Assembly: GCA_943788935.1 (NCBI GenBank)
Contig: CALSSE010000010.1
Coordinates: forward strand, 62,001-126,000
Length of the DNA stretch: 64,000 nucleotides
Reading direction: 5' to 3'
Origin: an uncultured bacterium
GTDB lineage: Bacteria > Myxococcota_A > Bradymonadia > UBA7976 > VGTA01
In this document: positions 39,438 through 52,332 of the stretch, piece by piece
Layout: each line of letters begins with the position of its first letter
Numbering within the stretch: position 1 is the stretch's first letter
Notes under the pieces: generated by a model
Database searches by the model: none
The model's input: the letters and a program-made list of their open reading frames with translations, nothing else
Told to the model about the DNA's origin: nothing
Program-made: the position numbers and the translations under genes

Positions 39438-40404
39438 GGGTTCTGTCAGAACTGAGTTTTATATGCTTAATTTTACTTAAGATATACTGTTCTTCTAGCC
39501 TCTAGTTCAGGAACTTAATTGCATAGAATGTGTAAGCTCTAAAGTCTTATTTAAATAGCTTGTTCTTTGTTGTTTTAATGATACTTTCTCTCCCCTTTTA
39601 CCGACCTTATAATAGTTTCTGAGCTCATCATGAGCTCTACAAAATCTAGAGGCTGATGTAAGAGACTTGAAGCCTTTCATCGGTCCATATCGTTGCTTGA
39701 TCCCTCTATGGTCTTGTTCAATCAGGTTGTTTAAGTATTGGTTAGTGCGATGGAGTACACTTTCCCCAAGCTCTTCTCTAATCGCCCTTGGATACGAGAC
39801 TTCTTTATCGGTTGTAACCCGATCTGGAGCATCTCCAGAGATATCCAAAGCCTCTTTGAAGAAGTGTTTAGCAGCTCTCATATTTCGATGTTTACTCAAC
39901 CTACAATCAATGAGCGCTCCTGATCGATCTACAGCCCGGTAGAGGTAGCACCACTTTCCTTTAACTTTGATATAAGTTTCATCTACATACCAACTCTTAC
40001 CGAGTGTTCCTCTACGTCGTCTCCTCAAGTGTTGAGTGATCAACGGAGCATATCTCTCTTCCCACGAACGCACGGCTTCATGAGTAAACTCAAATCCTCT
40101 CTCAAGCATCATCTCACTGAGATTTCGTAAACTCAGACAGTATCTTAGCCTCCACCTTACGACCATCAAAACGAGATCTGTTGGATACTCAAGAAAGTTA
40201 AAAACGGTACCGCTACGCTCGTTGAAGGTACACCGACATCTCTTGCATCTAAAGCGTTGATAACCTAGGCTTGTTGGTCGCTTAAGTAGACTCACTTCAG
40301 TAGATTGACACTTCGGGCACGCATCACTCATCAGATCATCTCCTTGCTCAAGATGCGACGATCATACACCATTTGAGCTTGGTCAACGAGTTCTGACAGA
40401 ACCC
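39438..40404 (-). mobile_element. IS6-like insertion sequence
   Basis: 967 bp with 16-bp terminal inverted repeats GGGTTCTGTCAGAACT (39438) and its complement at 40389-40404. It carries one transposase on the minus strand. The inner part GTTCTGTCAGAAC is itself nearly palindromic. No 8-bp target duplication (left TGATTAAG, right TCTATTGG). Confidence 0.85.
39507..40331 (-). CDS. IS6-like transposase with N-terminal zinc ribbon
   Basis: 274 residues. Starts with a four-Cys zinc ribbon (CPKCQ at 5-9, CKRCRCTF at about 29-36), a variant of the IS6 family that recognises DNA ends. The HTH region RNLSEMMLERGFEFTHEAVRSWEERY follows, then the compact DDE core: Asp in SWYVDETYIKVKGKWCYLYRAVD, Asp in DRVTTDKEVSYPRAI and Glu in QYLNNLIEQDHRGIKQRYGPMKGFKS. 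It reads through without damage, and GGAGATGATCTG lies before the ATG. IS6 members form cointegrates, so this copy could help rearrange the neighbourhood. Confidence 0.9.
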   Translation of the reverse strand: MSDACPKCQSTEVSLLKRPTSLGYQRFRCKRCRCTFNERSGTVFNFLEYPTDLVLMVVRWRLRYCLSLRNLSEMMLERGFEFTHEAVRSWEERYAPLITQHLRRRRRGTLGKSWYVDETYIKVKGKWCYLYRAVDRSGALIDCRLSKHRNMRAAKHFFKEALDISGDAPDRVTTDKEVSYPRAIREELGESVLHRTNQYLNNLIEQDHRGIKQRYGPMKGFKSLTSASRFCRAHDELRNYYKVGKRGEKVSLKQQRTSYLNKTLELTHSMQLSS

Positions 40405-40437: not shown

Positions 40438-41439
40438 TTAGAGCCCATGAGAGTATAGAATGTCTACTAAACAATCGGTGAACTTCTTATCATCATTAGC
40501 GCCTACAACCCTGTAATAAGACTCAAAACCACCCGCCAAAGCCTGTTCTTTATAGGTGACGTCCATCTCATACAGAGTCTCTATATGGTCGGAGGTGAAG
40601 CTGACTGGATAGACTAGCAGGTGACCCCCTCTTGATTTGGCGAGCTCATCAATCGTTTCATCGGTGTAGGGTCTAGTCCATTCTACTGGTCCGACCCTCG
40701 ATTGAAAACACAAGTTCCAATGCAAGCGCTCTGCTTGATGGGGATCAACTTCAGCTAATATTCGTCTCTTGACTTCATGAAAGTGCCCCGTCGTCTCTGT
40801 CACATAAGGGTCACCCTTATCCCGATAACGCCTAGGGATCCCATGAGCAGAAAACATAAGGGTTATGGGCCCTTCCGGTTGATTCAAAATGACTTCGTCG
40901 AGTTTTTTCTTAACCCCGCGAGTGCTGTACTCTAGATAGCTTTGATTATGCCACCATGAATAGATTCTTGTGCTATCAATCTCTTTATTTGGAAAACGCT
41001 CCCTGATCGCTTGATCCACTTCTCTAACTGATGTGGCTGTCGTGCTATGACAAAAATGCGGATACATCGTGAGGATAAAAACTTTTCCACCATTAAACTT
41101 TAGCTTTGGGATCACATCTCTAGCGAAAGGTGCTGTATACCGGTTGATCACGTGAACATCAGTATCAGGGTTCTTCTCTCTTAAGATGTCCTGCAGCTGA
41201 TCTGCCTGAGTCTGTGTCATCTTGTTGATGGGAGAATAGCCTATCTTGGCGTACTCATGATTAGATTCAGGCGCCCTCTTTTTACTTATTCTCTTGGCCA
41301 ATAAGGTCCTTAGAGGAGCAAAGGGGATTTTGATAACGAGAGGGTCATCAAAAAGAAGAAAGAGAAATGGTCTGACCTCTTCTTCTTTAGTGGGCCCTCC
41401 AAAGTTACAGAGGATGATCTCATCGGTTGGTCTTTCCAT
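40438..41439 (-). CDS. hemH: ferrochelatase
   Basis: 333 residues; inserts Fe2+ into protoporphyrin IX, the last step of heme synthesis. It starts DEIILCNFGGPTKEEEVRPFL, as usual. Metal-site and signature motifs are present: LMFSAHGIPRRYRDKGDPY with the catalytic His, then WNLCFQSRVGPVEWTRPYTDE and LLVYPVSFTSDHIETLYEMD with the conserved Glu. Length is normal for the bacterial enzyme. AAGGAAAG precedes the ATG. No other heme gene is adjacent. Cys in NLCFQS and Cys near the end do not form an obvious [2Fe-2S] set. Confidence 0.93.
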   Translation of the reverse strand: MERPTDEIILCNFGGPTKEEEVRPFLFLLFDDPLVIKIPFAPLRTLLAKRISKKRAPESNHEYAKIGYSPINKMTQTQADQLQDILREKNPDTDVHVINRYTAPFARDVIPKLKFNGGKVFILTMYPHFCHSTTATSVREVDQAIRERFPNKEIDSTRIYSWWHNQSYLEYSTRGVKKKLDEVILNQPEGPITLMFSAHGIPRRYRDKGDPYVTETTGHFHEVKRRILAEVDPHQAERLHWNLCFQSRVGPVEWTRPYTDETIDELAKSRGGHLLVYPVSFTSDHIETLYEMDVTYKEQALAGGFESYYRVVGANDDKKFTDCLVDILYSHGL

Positions 41440-44852: not shown

Positions 44853-44917
44853 GACTTGGCAAGAGAGACTTGGCAAGAGAGACTTGGCAAGAGAGATTTG
44901 GCAAGAGAGATTTGGCA
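44853..44917. repeat. 4.6 x 14-bp tandem repeat
   Basis: Unit GACTTGGCAAGAGA, the last two copies with GATTTGG. It lies in the otherwise empty gap 44590-45290, which contains no recognised gene. No spacers. Confidence 0.9.
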
Positions 44918-45290: not shown

Positions 45291-45545
45291 TCAGCCATCG
45301 ATAAATAGGATCACTGAGATCATCAAATTGCCATGAACGCATTCACCGTCTGGAAATACACCCTGCTCACCAAAAGTAAACTGGCAGAGGACTGGTATAT
45401 TGGGGATCTCCTCATTAACACCTCGCCTTATCTCCTCTATACGATCCTCGACGGCGAGGAAGCATCCAGCGCAAAAAATAATGAGCACTCCTCGTACGTT
45501 GTGTAAGGGCTCTTCTGCCTCAACAAGCGCTCCCTTAATGACACG
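45291..45545 (-). pseudogene. C-terminal part of the FIST protein, out of phase
   Basis: In the frame one base off from 45437-46453, the sequence reads VIKGALVEAEEPLHNVRGVL, IIFCAGCFLAVEDRIEEIRR and FTFGEQGVFPDGECVHGNLM, ending ISVILFIDG. This is the expected close of a FIST_C domain: C-A-G-R/C..., then G-F-x-T-F/Y-G-E and H-N. The overlapping end of the other frame (RERLLRQKSPYTTYEECSLF) is nonsense by comparison. A single base appears to be lost at about 45538-45546. Confidence 0.75.
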
Positions 45546-46453
45546 CCGCGTCCGCCAATGACGCTCTCTTCATCACCTCGAAGTTGATAGATCATTTGGT
45601 TAAGATCAACGTGAGCGAAAGTGCTGATTGAGAGATCTTCGCGAAGCTCTCTAGGATGAATTACTTGAAAATAAGAGAGTGACCCTAAAGACCCCCTCAA
45701 GGTGGCTAGAGGCGAATAAGTACTTTCCTCTAAAATAACATCCCCCGGTGACAGCTCGGGGAGTCGCTGTCTATTCCATCGCTGATAGACGAGTCCTGCA
45801 GGTTGATGATCTATTTCCTTGATCAATCGTTGATCACAGCTGGTGACAATTCCCGAGTGTTCGGTTAGGAAGTATCCGCTACTCAAACGAGTAAATACCT
45901 GAGCGCTAGAGTACATGGTGGTGAGCACGACTCCTTGGGAGAAGCTGTTATATTGATCAGCGATCCACCACTGTGCTTCGATCATATTATCAGCGGCTGA
46001 CCCTCCACAGATCATCACTTTTGCCCGATAAAATGACTGGATACTATTGATCACTTGTTCTTCAAAGCCCGGTGTTGCCGACATCCATACTAAGGATGGC
46101 AACTCTCCCGAGCGCTCTGCTCTGAGAGAGGCTGTGGTGAGTAACTGTTGCACCAAATGATCTACATCACTCTCAAGCTCAAAACCTCCTGCGGCGCTTC
46201 CATAACTACCGAGAGGGTCATGAAACCCGAATACCCCAATCGATTGATCGAGGTAAACATGATCTTGATTAAAGAAGCCTTTACAGCTGGTAGCAATATG
46301 TTTTTGAGCCCTTGGAAAGCTCCGATTCAACGCAGGTAAGAGGCTGAGCGGATCACACTCCATCGGGGCGGTGACGATTATGCAGTCTAGATCACTGGGG
46401 AGATTAGATCGCTCAGATTGGTGATAGACTTGACTATATATACTCAGTCCCAT
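45437..46453 (-). CDS. FIST-domain sensor protein, N-terminal part (frameshifted)
   Basis: FIST domains are cytosolic sensory modules thought to bind small ligands such as amino acids and to act with signalling proteins. FIST_N is visible in LDCIIVTAPMECDPLSLLPALNRSF, HIATSCKGFF, SIGVFGFHDPLGSYGSAAGGF and AKVMICGGSAADNM..QWWIADQYNSFSQGVVLTTMY; FIST_C begins at EIDHQPAGLVYQRWN. The real C-terminus continues in another frame at 45291-45545, so the deposited sequence gives a truncated product. It lies 31 bp after the Ser/Thr kinase gene on the same strand, so the two are probably one operon and one pathway (inference). Confidence 0.8.
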   Translation of the reverse strand: MGLSIYSQVYHQSERSNLPSDLDCIIVTAPMECDPLSLLPALNRSFPRAQKHIATSCKGFFNQDHVYLDQSIGVFGFHDPLGSYGSAAGGFELESDVDHLVQQLLTTASLRAERSGELPSLVWMSATPGFEEQVINSIQSFYRAKVMICGGSAADNMIEAQWWIADQYNSFSQGVVLTTMYSSAQVFTRLSSGYFLTEHSGIVTSCDQRLIKEIDHQPAGLVYQRWNRQRLPELSPGDVILEESTYSPLATLRGSLGSLSYFQVIHPRELREDLSISTFAHVDLNQMIYQLRGDEESVIGGRGVSLRERLLRQKSPYTTYEECSLFFALDASSPSRIV

Positions 46454-46484
46454 AGGGCGGTGTTGCCTTTGCTTAAAGTACAGA

Positions 46485-48263
46485 TTATTTGCCTGAATTA
46501 GCCATAATGTCGGTAATCGAGAGTCTGGCAGTGGTGGGAGTCTCAGCTTTATTATCGAGCGAGGTATTATCGAAAGAGTGATTATCGAGAGAGGGATTAT
46601 CGAGAGAGTAATTATCGAGAGAGGGATTATCGAAAGAGGAATAGAGAGAGGGATTATTGAAAGAGGGATTATCGAGAGAGGGATTATCGAGAGGAGAGAT
46701 CACAGCGGAGCCAGCGCTCTGCTGTGATAAGTCATTACGCATAAACGCTTTAAGATCTTCAGCAAACTCATGACAAGTCGCATATCTCTCAGCAGGATCA
46801 AGCGCTGTAGATTGAGTGAGAATCGTTCTTAAAACTGGATTAGAGATCGACAGTGGGATCTCGAAGCCCATGTTGATATCAATCATGACTTTATAGAATG
46901 AATCATATGTGAACACTCTCTGACCCACTAAGAGCTCTATAAAGATCAAGCCCATCTGATATACATCAATTTGAGGACTGATGATTTTATATCGTAGGTA
47001 TTCAGGAGCGAGATAGGATAAAGTACCGCTTATATCTTTTGGGTCTTCTGCTTGATGACTCATGAGCAGGGCGATCCCAAAGTCTAATATCCGAAGATGC
47101 TCTTGTGGCGTATCTTCACTGACTAAGAATAAGTTTTGGGGCTTGAGATCTCGATGGACGAGTCCTGAAGAATGAGCCTGGGCTAAAGCTTCTAATACGG
47201 GGATGAAGAGTGGAATGAGAGTCCTCAGAGTAAAAGGACCTCTCTGGGCTAATCTCTTGCCTAAATCCTGACCGATGAGGTACTCCATCACAATAAAAGG
47301 GACCTGTTCCTGTGAATGAAACCCAATATCATATATTTGGACTACATTAGGGTGGTGAATATTTGCCGCCAGAGAGGCCTCTCTAATCAGCTGGTCAATA
47401 TGAGGCTTAGATGAACGGGTCTCTTCAACATTCGCCACTTTGATGGCTACTGAACGCTTAAGCAGAGTGTCATAGCTATGATAAACATCACCTTGACCGC
47501 CTTCGCCAAGTTTACTGATGATCTTATATCGTCCAGCGAGAATGCTCCCTTCTCTGATCGTTGGGTTGCTTTTGACCCGTGTATACTGTTGGTCGACAGT
47601 CTTTTCCATCATTGAAGTCATGCTTTGCTCAGAGAGAAGAGGACTCAAACTCTTGAGATAATCGCTTGATCCCTTCTCGGTGTGATGGACATCACCCGAT
47701 GACATCACCTTTGTCTCGAGACCGATAGCAGCGAAGTTAAAGCGATCTCGTTGTTGGCTGAGCAGGCGAGCGAGTTCATTGAGTAGGTACTGGTCATCCT
47801 TATCGAAGTGACCCACGTCAGAGTGGGTCATCAATAGCATGTAATTAGATTGATTGAGCTCAATCGTGCTCATCAGCATAGAGACAATATGATGCGTAAG
47901 CACTGGTGGAAAGGACTTAAGTATAGGTATCGCTTGGGCATTGAAGACAATACAGCGTTGACCGTTAAGTCGTCTCCGTAAAGGGCCGATGAGAGGCCAA
48001 AGATAGTCATTTTCTTCTGTTTGTGTACTAGTGATGACCTTCCCGTAGTCATCATTGATAACTTTTAAGATAAAGCACTCAATACCGACAAACCGGTTCT
48101 TTAGCGTCTCTACCACCAGCTCAAAAGGATCTCTTGAGAGCTGTTGAGATAAAACTTCAATCAGCTCGACCAAAAACTCATGAACTGTGATCATTCTCTG
48201 AGATTTTTGCTGAGATCTATTCATGGAATGAAGAGATTCCCAAAGGATTTCTTGAGATAGCAT
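46485..48263 (-). CDS. GAF-domain Ser/Thr protein kinase with a pentapeptide-repeat tail
   Basis: 592 residues, cytosolic (no membrane helix). Residues about 30-180 look like a GAF sensor (VVETLKNRFVGIECFILKV...LLMTHSDVGHFDKDDQYLLNELARLL). The Hanks-type kinase domain covers about 245-510: glycine loop KLGEGGQGDVY, ATP Lys in SVAIKVA, catalytic loop VHRDLKPQN (about 371), Mg-binding LDFGIAL (about 394), SGTLSYLAPEYL and DVYQMGLIFIELLVG. All key residues are present. The tail of about 55 residues is made of DNPSL/DNxSF pentapeptides. It is followed 31 bp later by the FIST gene. GAF-fronted kinases of this kind are frequent in Myxococcota regulation; its targets are unknown. Confidence 0.9.
   Translation of the reverse strand: MLSQEILWESLHSMNRSQQKSQRMITVHEFLVELIEVLSQQLSRDPFELVVETLKNRFVGIECFILKVINDDYGKVITSTQTEENDYLWPLIGPLRRRLNGQRCIVFNAQAIPILKSFPPVLTHHIVSMLMSTIELNQSNYMLLMTHSDVGHFDKDDQYLLNELARLLSQQRDRFNFAAIGLETKVMSSGDVHHTEKGSSDYLKSLSPLLSEQSMTSMMEKTVDQQYTRVKSNPTIREGSILAGRYKIISKLGEGGQGDVYHSYDTLLKRSVAIKVANVEETRSSKPHIDQLIREASLAANIHHPNVVQIYDIGFHSQEQVPFIVMEYLIGQDLGKRLAQRGPFTLRTLIPLFIPVLEALAQAHSSGLVHRDLKPQNLFLVSEDTPQEHLRILDFGIALLMSHQAEDPKDISGTLSYLAPEYLRYKIISPQIDVYQMGLIFIELLVGQRVFTYDSFYKVMIDINMGFEIPLSISNPVLRTILTQSTALDPAERYATCHEFAEDLKAFMRNDLSQQSAGSAVISPLDNPSLDNPSFNNPSLYSSFDNPSLDNYSLDNPSLDNHSFDNTSLDNKAETPTTARLSITDIMANSGK
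46551..46693 (-). repeat. imperfect 15-bp coding minisatellite (DNPSL-type)
   Basis: About nine imperfect copies of GAGAGAGGGATTATC (plus strand) encode the Asp-Asn-x-Ser-Leu/Phe tail of the kinase. It is more diverged than the other two 15-bp arrays of the window, so it is older. Confidence 0.85.
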
Positions 48264-48606
48264 GTCAAACCTATGAAGTGATGAGCTTAGTATTTAGTGT
48301 ATGAGTCCAAAATAACAGCTTGTATTCAAAGATCCAAGATCTCATTGCCAGTCAAAGACTCTCTAAGATTAGAGTCAAAAACTCTCTGAGACCAGAGTCG
48401 AAAACTCTCTGAGACTAGAGGAGAGATGATTAAGAAACGATCTCCATGGTCAGTACACTCACTGAGGTGGAGATCACTATGATCCTTCACATTTGCTGGC
48501 TTAACGAGAGGATCAATGATCATGAGACTCTCAGCCGAATAAAACCTAATCAGCTTTGAGCCAAACCTAATCGCTGTGAGCCAAATCTAATCGCTGTGAG
48601 TTGAGC
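48264..48606. other. gap with two small tandem repeats
   Basis: No gene. 48350-48418 has three 23-bp units (AGTCAAAAACTCTCTGAGAC..). 48542-48600 has three units of about 20 bp (AAACCTAATCGCTGTGAGCC). Both are imperfect and lie between the convergently spaced ends of the POT transporter and the kinase start. Confidence 0.8.
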
Positions 48607-51009: not shown

Positions 51010-52332
51010 TCAGTTAGGGTCTTGTGACTTCAGGAAGAGGCGCTTGACCTCACTATAGCTGACATGAGGATTTTTTCGTGGATCGACCATTCCTTGAGGA
51101 CCATTGGCGATCGGGTTACTCAATGGACCTCTCGGTAACCACAGGAAGTCAGGCTGTTGGCTAAAGTGTCCAAAGGAGCTTTCGGCGCTTCCATTGATCC
51201 ACTCACCACCGATAATTTGGCCGTCACCATCAAGCTCTAAGATATAGTGATAAAGGTCATCTCGCAGGTAGCGATGATGGTTGTCGGTGATCGGCTCACT
51301 CATGGGTCTTGATTCGACGACATACTTGACGTCGACGATCACTTCGACAAATGACTTAGCTTGATCATTATAGGGGTAACTCATCACTGTAGAGGGGTCT
51401 GTGACTAAGAGGGCGATCGCTTCACTCTCTGAGACCTCCCTTAAGCTCTCTATGACATAAGAATCAACCGGTTGATTCCACACTTGAGCGTCATAGGTGC
51501 GGTCCTCAGCGAAACCTAGTTCAAGTAGGCCGAGGAAATTAGTGAGGATGACGTGGAAAGTCCCCGCATTGGTGTCACGGCACTCAATGTTGATAATCCG
51601 ACCGTTCTCATCTCGTTCGACGCTATCTGTTTTACATCGACCTCCGACGACCATGGCTCGAGAGTAATCATAGGCGGTGATCATGAGGGCTTTCAAATCA
51701 GAGATCTCAAAGGTGACCCCCTTTATCGTGACTGGATAAAGTGGCTCATCTTCTAATAATGAAGCGGGAGTCCAAGCGTGACAGAGCCCCCACCAAACCC
51801 CAATCCCTTCGTGACCGCTACACTCATCAATTTTACCATCATTGTCATTATCAAGACCATCATGGGTTCTCCAATGCCCTCTATGCTCAGACATCCATCG
51901 CGCTGCCGGACCAATCACCTGATAGTACTCGGGGTCGAAACTGGTGTCTGCGCAATCGACCTGTCGAGGCTGTAAGCTCATAAAGTCTTCGGGAGGTACC
52001 CATCCATTGAACACGAGGTCGTATTTCTCCATGGGGCTTAAGGTCTCAGCACCTAACCAACGAGCGTTCGTGCTGTCTTCATAAGTAGGCCAATAGGAGG
52101 CGGGCCATGCTCTTTTTTTGGCTCGTCCCTCCAAGGGTAAGTCGGCGAGAGTATACACTAGTTCTTCATCGAGATAGCGTACGAAGCGATCGGGGTCATT
52201 CAGTTTGTCCCACTGGTCTGCTTTTCCATATGACTCACTATCTTGGCCCTCACCGCCTTCTGAGTCTAGTGTGAGCTCACTACAAGCGGTGAGCATAAGA
52301 AAGGCACAGATATAGCATAAAGACTTGGTCAT
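51010..52332 (-). CDS. transglutaminase-elicitor-like lipoprotein
   Basis: 440 residues; signal peptide ends LTAC (Cys17). It resembles the transglutaminase elicitor family (Pfam TGase_elicitor), first known from the GP42 cell-wall transglutaminase of Phytophthora and also present in some bacteria. Matching parts are AWPASYWPTYEDSTNARWLG, LSPMEKYDLVFNGW, then the likely catalytic Cys184 in WWGLCHAWTPASLLEDEP, followed by VTIKGVTFEISDLKALMITAY and GTFHVILTNFLGL (with the His candidate). An Asp-rich loop GLDNDNDGKIDEC looks like a calcium-binding site. It would cross-link Gln and Lys side chains outside the cell. Confidence rests on these motifs; activity is not shown. Confidence 0.75.
   Translation of the reverse strand: MTKSLCYICAFLMLTACSELTLDSEGGEGQDSESYGKADQWDKLNDPDRFVRYLDEELVYTLADLPLEGRAKKRAWPASYWPTYEDSTNARWLGAETLSPMEKYDLVFNGWVPPEDFMSLQPRQVDCADTSFDPEYYQVIGPAARWMSEHRGHWRTHDGLDNDNDGKIDECSGHEGIGVWWGLCHAWTPASLLEDEPLYPVTIKGVTFEISDLKALMITAYDYSRAMVVGGRCKTDSVERDENGRIINIECRDTNAGTFHVILTNFLGLLELGFAEDRTYDAQVWNQPVDSYVIESLREVSESEAIALLVTDPSTVMSYPYNDQAKSFVEVIVDVKYVVESRPMSEPITDNHHRYLRDDLYHYILELDGDGQIIGGEWINGSAESSFGHFSQQPDFLWLPRGPLSNPIANGPQGMVDPRKNPHVSYSEVKRLFLKSQDPN

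Follow-up and report, generated by a model that had tools for sequence, protein, structure and literature searches.

A pair of adjacent genes in the window, the whole 64,000-nucleotide stretch of Bradymonadia DNA analysed here, probably encodes a FIST sensor and its dedicated kinase, with the FIST protein controlling a Ser/Thr output through the N-terminal module of the kinase, in an arrangement that would have arisen by exchange of the output domain. This module, of ~180 residues and composed of an N-terminal helix plus a GAF module, is here named GAFm. Both genes are on the minus strand, and the FIST ORF starts at 46453, 31 bp from the kinase gene, as originally predicted. Promoter and terminator scans around the pair gave results near chance level, and no terminator-like site was found between the kinase and FIST genes. 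The features of the kinase gene are as follows:

46485-48263, minus strand: GAF module-Hanks Ser/Thr kinase gene, 592 aa (ORF, Pkinase match and conserved residues).
47724-48263, minus strand: GAFm, the FIST-partner module, with a long helix (residues 2-40) and a predicted GAF fold (window-excluded profile, AF2 and Foldseek).
46785-47528, minus strand: protein kinase catalytic domain, residues 246-493, with intact catalytic residues (Pkinase E 1.4e-46 and conserved columns).
46551-46693, minus strand: 15-bp tandem repeat of 9.7 copies that encodes an SLDNP-like C-terminal tail of the kinase (repeat scan).

The protein encoded by the first gene matched the Pkinase model with 159.4 bits, against a cut-off of 31.7, and contains K275, E295, HRD370-372, N377, DFG394-396, P420-E421 and R493, all of which are also present in the aligned columns of one relative. 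A match above the cut-off together with the K, E, HRD, N, DFG and APE elements identifies it as a Hanks-type Ser/Thr protein kinase with the complete residue set that had been anticipated. The copy number of the repeat in its tail may differ among strains; a 45-base stretch of this repeat occurs only once in the genome. Other short tandem repeats were found in the spacers around the pair, at 44853-44917 (14 bp), 48350-48420 (23 bp) and 48542-48600 (20 bp). Elsewhere in the window, 51010-52332 encodes a bacterial protein with a strong match to TGase_elicitor (E 9e-64), a family named for an elicitor transglutaminase, and an IS240/IS6-type transposase (39507-40331) is located near a ferrochelatase gene (40438-41439).

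The matches of the kinase to the Pfam GAF models were below the cut-off. A single-sequence search of the class with the kinase N-terminus gave one weak match, to the front of a histidine kinase in genome G047 located directly behind a FIST gene, and this match led to the GAFm module. A GAFm profile was built from 15 FIST-adjacent relatives, leaving the window out, and it matched the N-terminus of the window kinase with 66.9 bits (E 6e-18 among 1.6 million residues), whereas 2,000 shuffled versions of the window GAFm stretch scored at most 8 bits. The window was not listed in one genome search with this profile, which used a loose first filter; since local HMMER recovered it with and without filters, this looks like an effect of the first filter. 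The AF2 model of the window GAFm (pLDDT 80.6, pTM 0.71) consists of a helix of 39 residues and, after it, a GAF fold, and its top Foldseek matches in the PDB were GAF domains. Judging from the predicted structure, the GAF-like front proposed for this kinase is a genuine GAF fold. GAFm copies attached to different kinase types are homologous, with 39% identity over 184 aa between those of L069 (Ser/Thr kinase) and L034 (histidine kinase). The copies next to FIST have the N-terminal helix, which is shorter in four copies distant from FIST.

The surroundings of 53 FIST genes from the order, class and phylum were compared. Eight proteins from these surroundings contained GAFm, the window kinase included, and all eight are encoded directly next to FIST. 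The module is joined to Ser/Thr kinases in the window, L063, L065 and L069, and to histidine kinases in L034, L056, L057 and L067, the last with split frames. Twelve GAFm matches were found in 57 genomes of the class, corresponding to eight strong FIST-adjacent copies and four weak ones, the latter on histidine kinases, away from FIST and without the first part of the helix. The search of 379 Myxococcota genomes added seven strong copies outside the class, six of them directly adjoining FIST (the output being a histidine kinase in five cases and STAS in L109). When one peptide pattern was scanned against ~85,000 species genomes, two gammaproteobacterial MAGs were added, in which FIST is followed by GAFm-PAS-GGDEF-EAL. 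These counts were drawn from related genomes and hence do not represent independent events. The strong GAFm genes are usually found just downstream of FIST, whereas the order is reversed in the window, where the GAFm-kinase gene is upstream. As the adjacency of FIST and GAFm is kept while the outputs differ, these two make up the constant pair, to which variable outputs are attached.

Two of these loci types have outputs of a different nature. The L109 locus (L109:656-2835) encodes FIST and then GAFm-STAS, without a kinase, while the two MAGs belong to Ectothiorhodospiraceae (L176:1278-4727 and L177:3776-7235) and have a c-di-GMP output.

The range of outputs bears on the direction of control. 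FIST and GAFm drive histidine kinase, GGDEF-EAL and STAS outputs, not all of which are able to phosphorylate FIST, so FIST is more likely an input than a substrate. The opposite reading, in which FIST is the substrate of the kinase and not its sensor, seems quite improbable. Gene pairing alone does not give the direction, and Hanks kinases often adjoin the gene of their substrate, but what the different outputs have in common is the input and not Ser/Thr phosphorylation, and in the studied histidine kinase pairs FIST is the regulator.

The FIST gene (45291-46453, minus strand) contains the FIST_N and FIST_C domains that had been predicted for it, which were detected in different frames of this assembly:

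45554-46453, minus strand: first-frame part of the FIST gene, with FIST_N (45803-46378) and the start of FIST_C (PF08495 E 2.3e-17; tblastn of relatives).
45291-45554, minus strand: remaining portion of FIST_C, read in another frame without a stop before the expected end (PF10442 E 4.3e-7).
45550-45562, minus strand: reading-frame break within FIST_C, where the frame-1 matches of relatives stop and the frame-3 matches start.
46283-46285, minus strand: Cys57 of a TSCxG stretch, conserved in 14/15 GAFm-partnered FISTs and 0/45 others.
45462-45473, minus strand: CAGC motif, the signature of the GAFm-partnered FIST subfamily, found in 15/15 GAFm-FISTs and 0/39 FISTs outside the clade described below, and kept in the window.

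A tree of 61 FISTs was constructed, for which the two frame pieces of the window FIST were aligned individually. One 22-member clade of this tree (support 100/100) unites the window FIST with every one of the 15 other GAFm-partnered FISTs, and no GAFm gene adjoins the six FISTs that complete it. No GAFm partner was found for any of the 39 FISTs beyond this clade, indicating a near-exclusive linkage of the module to one FIST clade (Fisher p 4e-10, a value inflated by shared ancestry). The CxGC-clade FISTs L074, L076, L077, L078, L081 and L082 have no GAFm gene adjacent or found in their genomes.

These data also bear on the possibility that an ordinary orphan GAF-kinase lies by chance next to an unrelated FIST gene. 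The genome contains one FIST gene and 58 Pkinase matches, which places the probability of adjacency alone at ~2% (a rough estimate), and synteny around the pair is not kept in genomes G001 and G002. However, kinase and FIST each fall independently in GAFm and FIST subfamilies that co-occur elsewhere, and three other genomes of the order have the pair as well. The GAFm and FIST subfamily evidence removes the doubt raised by the ~2% estimate, and coincidence is hardly credible as an explanation.

The clade is also distinguished by its cysteines. Its members carry CAGC or a close CxGC, with the second cysteine present in 21/21 of them versus 0/39 FISTs outside, which mostly have C-x-G-R-like residues at this position. 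The cysteine of the GEQGC stretch is conserved in the 15 other GAFm-FISTs (15/15) and is a valine in the window (GEQGV). The window FIST belongs to the subfamily by its clade and CAGC motif, also retains the TSC stretch, and departs from the subfamily at the GEQGC cysteine. The sequence pattern of the conserved cysteines suggests that the signal could be a metal or a redox state. The structure model of the FIST protein was weak (pLDDT 64.7) and the cysteines could not be placed on it; the matches ranked highest, all single YjgF-like domains, lacked significance, and no solved structure matched when a FIST sequence was used as the query. It is unlikely that the genes form a NosP-type heme or nitric oxide sensor pair. 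NosP FIST proteins are heme-binding NO sensors that control the kinases beside them (PMC12570481, PMC8846402), but the window FIST belongs to a distinct clade, marked by CAGC, GEQGC and TSCxG cysteines that are absent from the non-clade FISTs of this set, which does not include NosP sequences.

The original prediction placed a frame break in the FIST gene near 45540. The break was confirmed, but its site is 45550-45562, slightly upstream of that position. The second frame picks up at 45554, in a conserved RxxRV stretch, and ends at a stop at 45291. Either an indel in the assembly or a mutation of very recent date would account for this break; alternatively, the pair could be a decaying relic in this genome, with the FIST gene a true pseudogene and the kinase acting alone or drifting too, which is possible although somewhat doubtful. 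A relic would agree with the break in FIST_C, the loss of one subfamily cysteine, the long branches of the window GAFm and FIST, and the absence of the pair from G001 and G002. On the other hand, an indel in the draft assembly is equally possible, and the piece downstream of the break, open to its expected end, has 46% identity over 84 aa with the L065 and L069 FISTs, retains the CAGC, GEQG and HGNLMI stretches, and shows a coding-like codon-position GC that resembles the intact part. No other signs of decay were seen. The proposal of a kinase-FIST signalling pair is supported in part, by the GAFm linkage, the FIST clade and the recurrence of the pair; the frame break, the lost cysteine and the absence in G001 and G002 count against a working copy in the window.

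The search for kinase-FIST adjacency in other Myxococcota, which the original prediction had called for, showed FIST followed by a GAFm-Ser/Thr kinase in three genomes of the window's order, from two genera (L063, L065 and L069), and a further adjacency in L035, a fourth genome, which belongs to the class; there the FIST is a different one and GAFm is missing. FIST and the kinase are the sole genes in common between the L063 locus and the L065 and L069 loci, and these neighbourhoods did not suggest a target. FIST was absent from the genus-mate G001 and the family-mate G002 (one genome each), where a transporter gene is present and no other neighbour of the window locus is kept.

In the best tree, the L035 kinase, whose gene adjoins a FIST from a different clade, is sister to the L063, L065 and L069 kinase domains. 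The position of the window kinase is separate from these, near kinases of its own genome. A single clade of the Ser/Thr pairs was not rejected by the AU test, either for the kinases (p 0.25) or for GAFm (p 0.07). The window GAFm and kinase are on long branches, so any orthology of the window pair with the other Ser/Thr pairs would be tentative. A more elaborate scenario, which we regard as rather unlikely, is that the swap to a Ser/Thr kinase happened more than once, including an independent event in the lineage of the window, and that FIST and GAFm form a portable input cassette that would sense redox state or a metal via the subfamily cysteines and would have been combined with no fewer than four outputs (histidine kinase, Ser/Thr kinase, GGDEF-EAL and STAS).

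The L035 locus (L035:6-5689) encodes a FIST protein of 1144 aa, whose gene overlaps by 4 bp with that of a Ser/Thr kinase bearing a STAS-like region. The C-terminal ~780 aa of this FIST protein had no convincing Pfam match.

The pairing had been considered undescribed. FIST genes beside histidine kinases are already known, as in NosP-NahK and NosP-NosK, and a histidine kinase is also the partner of most GAFm-linked FISTs of this analysis; the Ser/Thr output is the unusual part. NosP proteins control the autophosphorylation of adjacent histidine kinases in vitro (PMC12570481, PMC8846402). Like the window pair, the NosP-NahK and NosP-NosK-NosR systems consist of a stand-alone FIST protein and a soluble kinase with adjacent genes, and there FIST regulates the kinase (PMC12570481, PMC8846402). 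The window differs from both in having a Hanks Ser/Thr kinase instead of a histidine kinase, GAFm as the N-terminal partner domain, a FIST of the CAGC subfamily and no adjacent response regulator. In Vibrio cholerae, the FIST gene vpsV is directly upstream of the gene for the cytoplasmic hybrid histidine kinase VpsS and has been proposed to encode its sensing partner (PMC4398556); here too the output is a histidine kinase and not a Ser/Thr kinase. Further counterparts are the FIST/GAFm-histidine-kinase pairs of L034, L056, L057, L106-L108, L110 and L112, which share the FIST clade and GAFm with the window, but have a HisKA-HATPase output, often with receiver domains. Outside bacteria, the FIST domain of human FBXO22 uses one edge to recognise a dimeric partner (PMC11185555), although FBXO22 is a ubiquitin ligase receptor without a kinase.

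By analogy with NosP and FBXO22, the FIST protein of the window would bind to GAFm in its dimeric form and govern the activity of the kinase joined to it. FIST would be the soluble sensor and the helix-GAF module of the kinase its adaptor, with the N-terminal helix of GAFm as a candidate contact or pairing element. Binding of a signal by FIST would alter its engagement of GAFm, and the Hanks kinase joined to GAFm may in turn pair and autophosphorylate to a different extent and would then phosphorylate its Ser/Thr targets. The putative ancestor is a FIST/GAFm-histidine-kinase pair whose output domain was exchanged for a Ser/Thr kinase.

No description of FIST with Ser/Thr kinases, or of FIST with Myxococcota, was found in the open-licence literature; as the search was confined to such papers, this is weak evidence of novelty. 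To our knowledge, the input is unknown for most bacterial Hanks kinases. In this case a direct comparison is possible between the input protein, the adaptor and a natural histidine kinase counterpart, one example of which occurs in the named isolate Lujinxingia vulgaris TMQ2. The comparison defines a FIST subfamily with conserved cysteines and suggests that a two-component sensor unit was apparently re-wired from histidine to Ser/Thr phosphorylation, with its sensor and adaptor domain unchanged.
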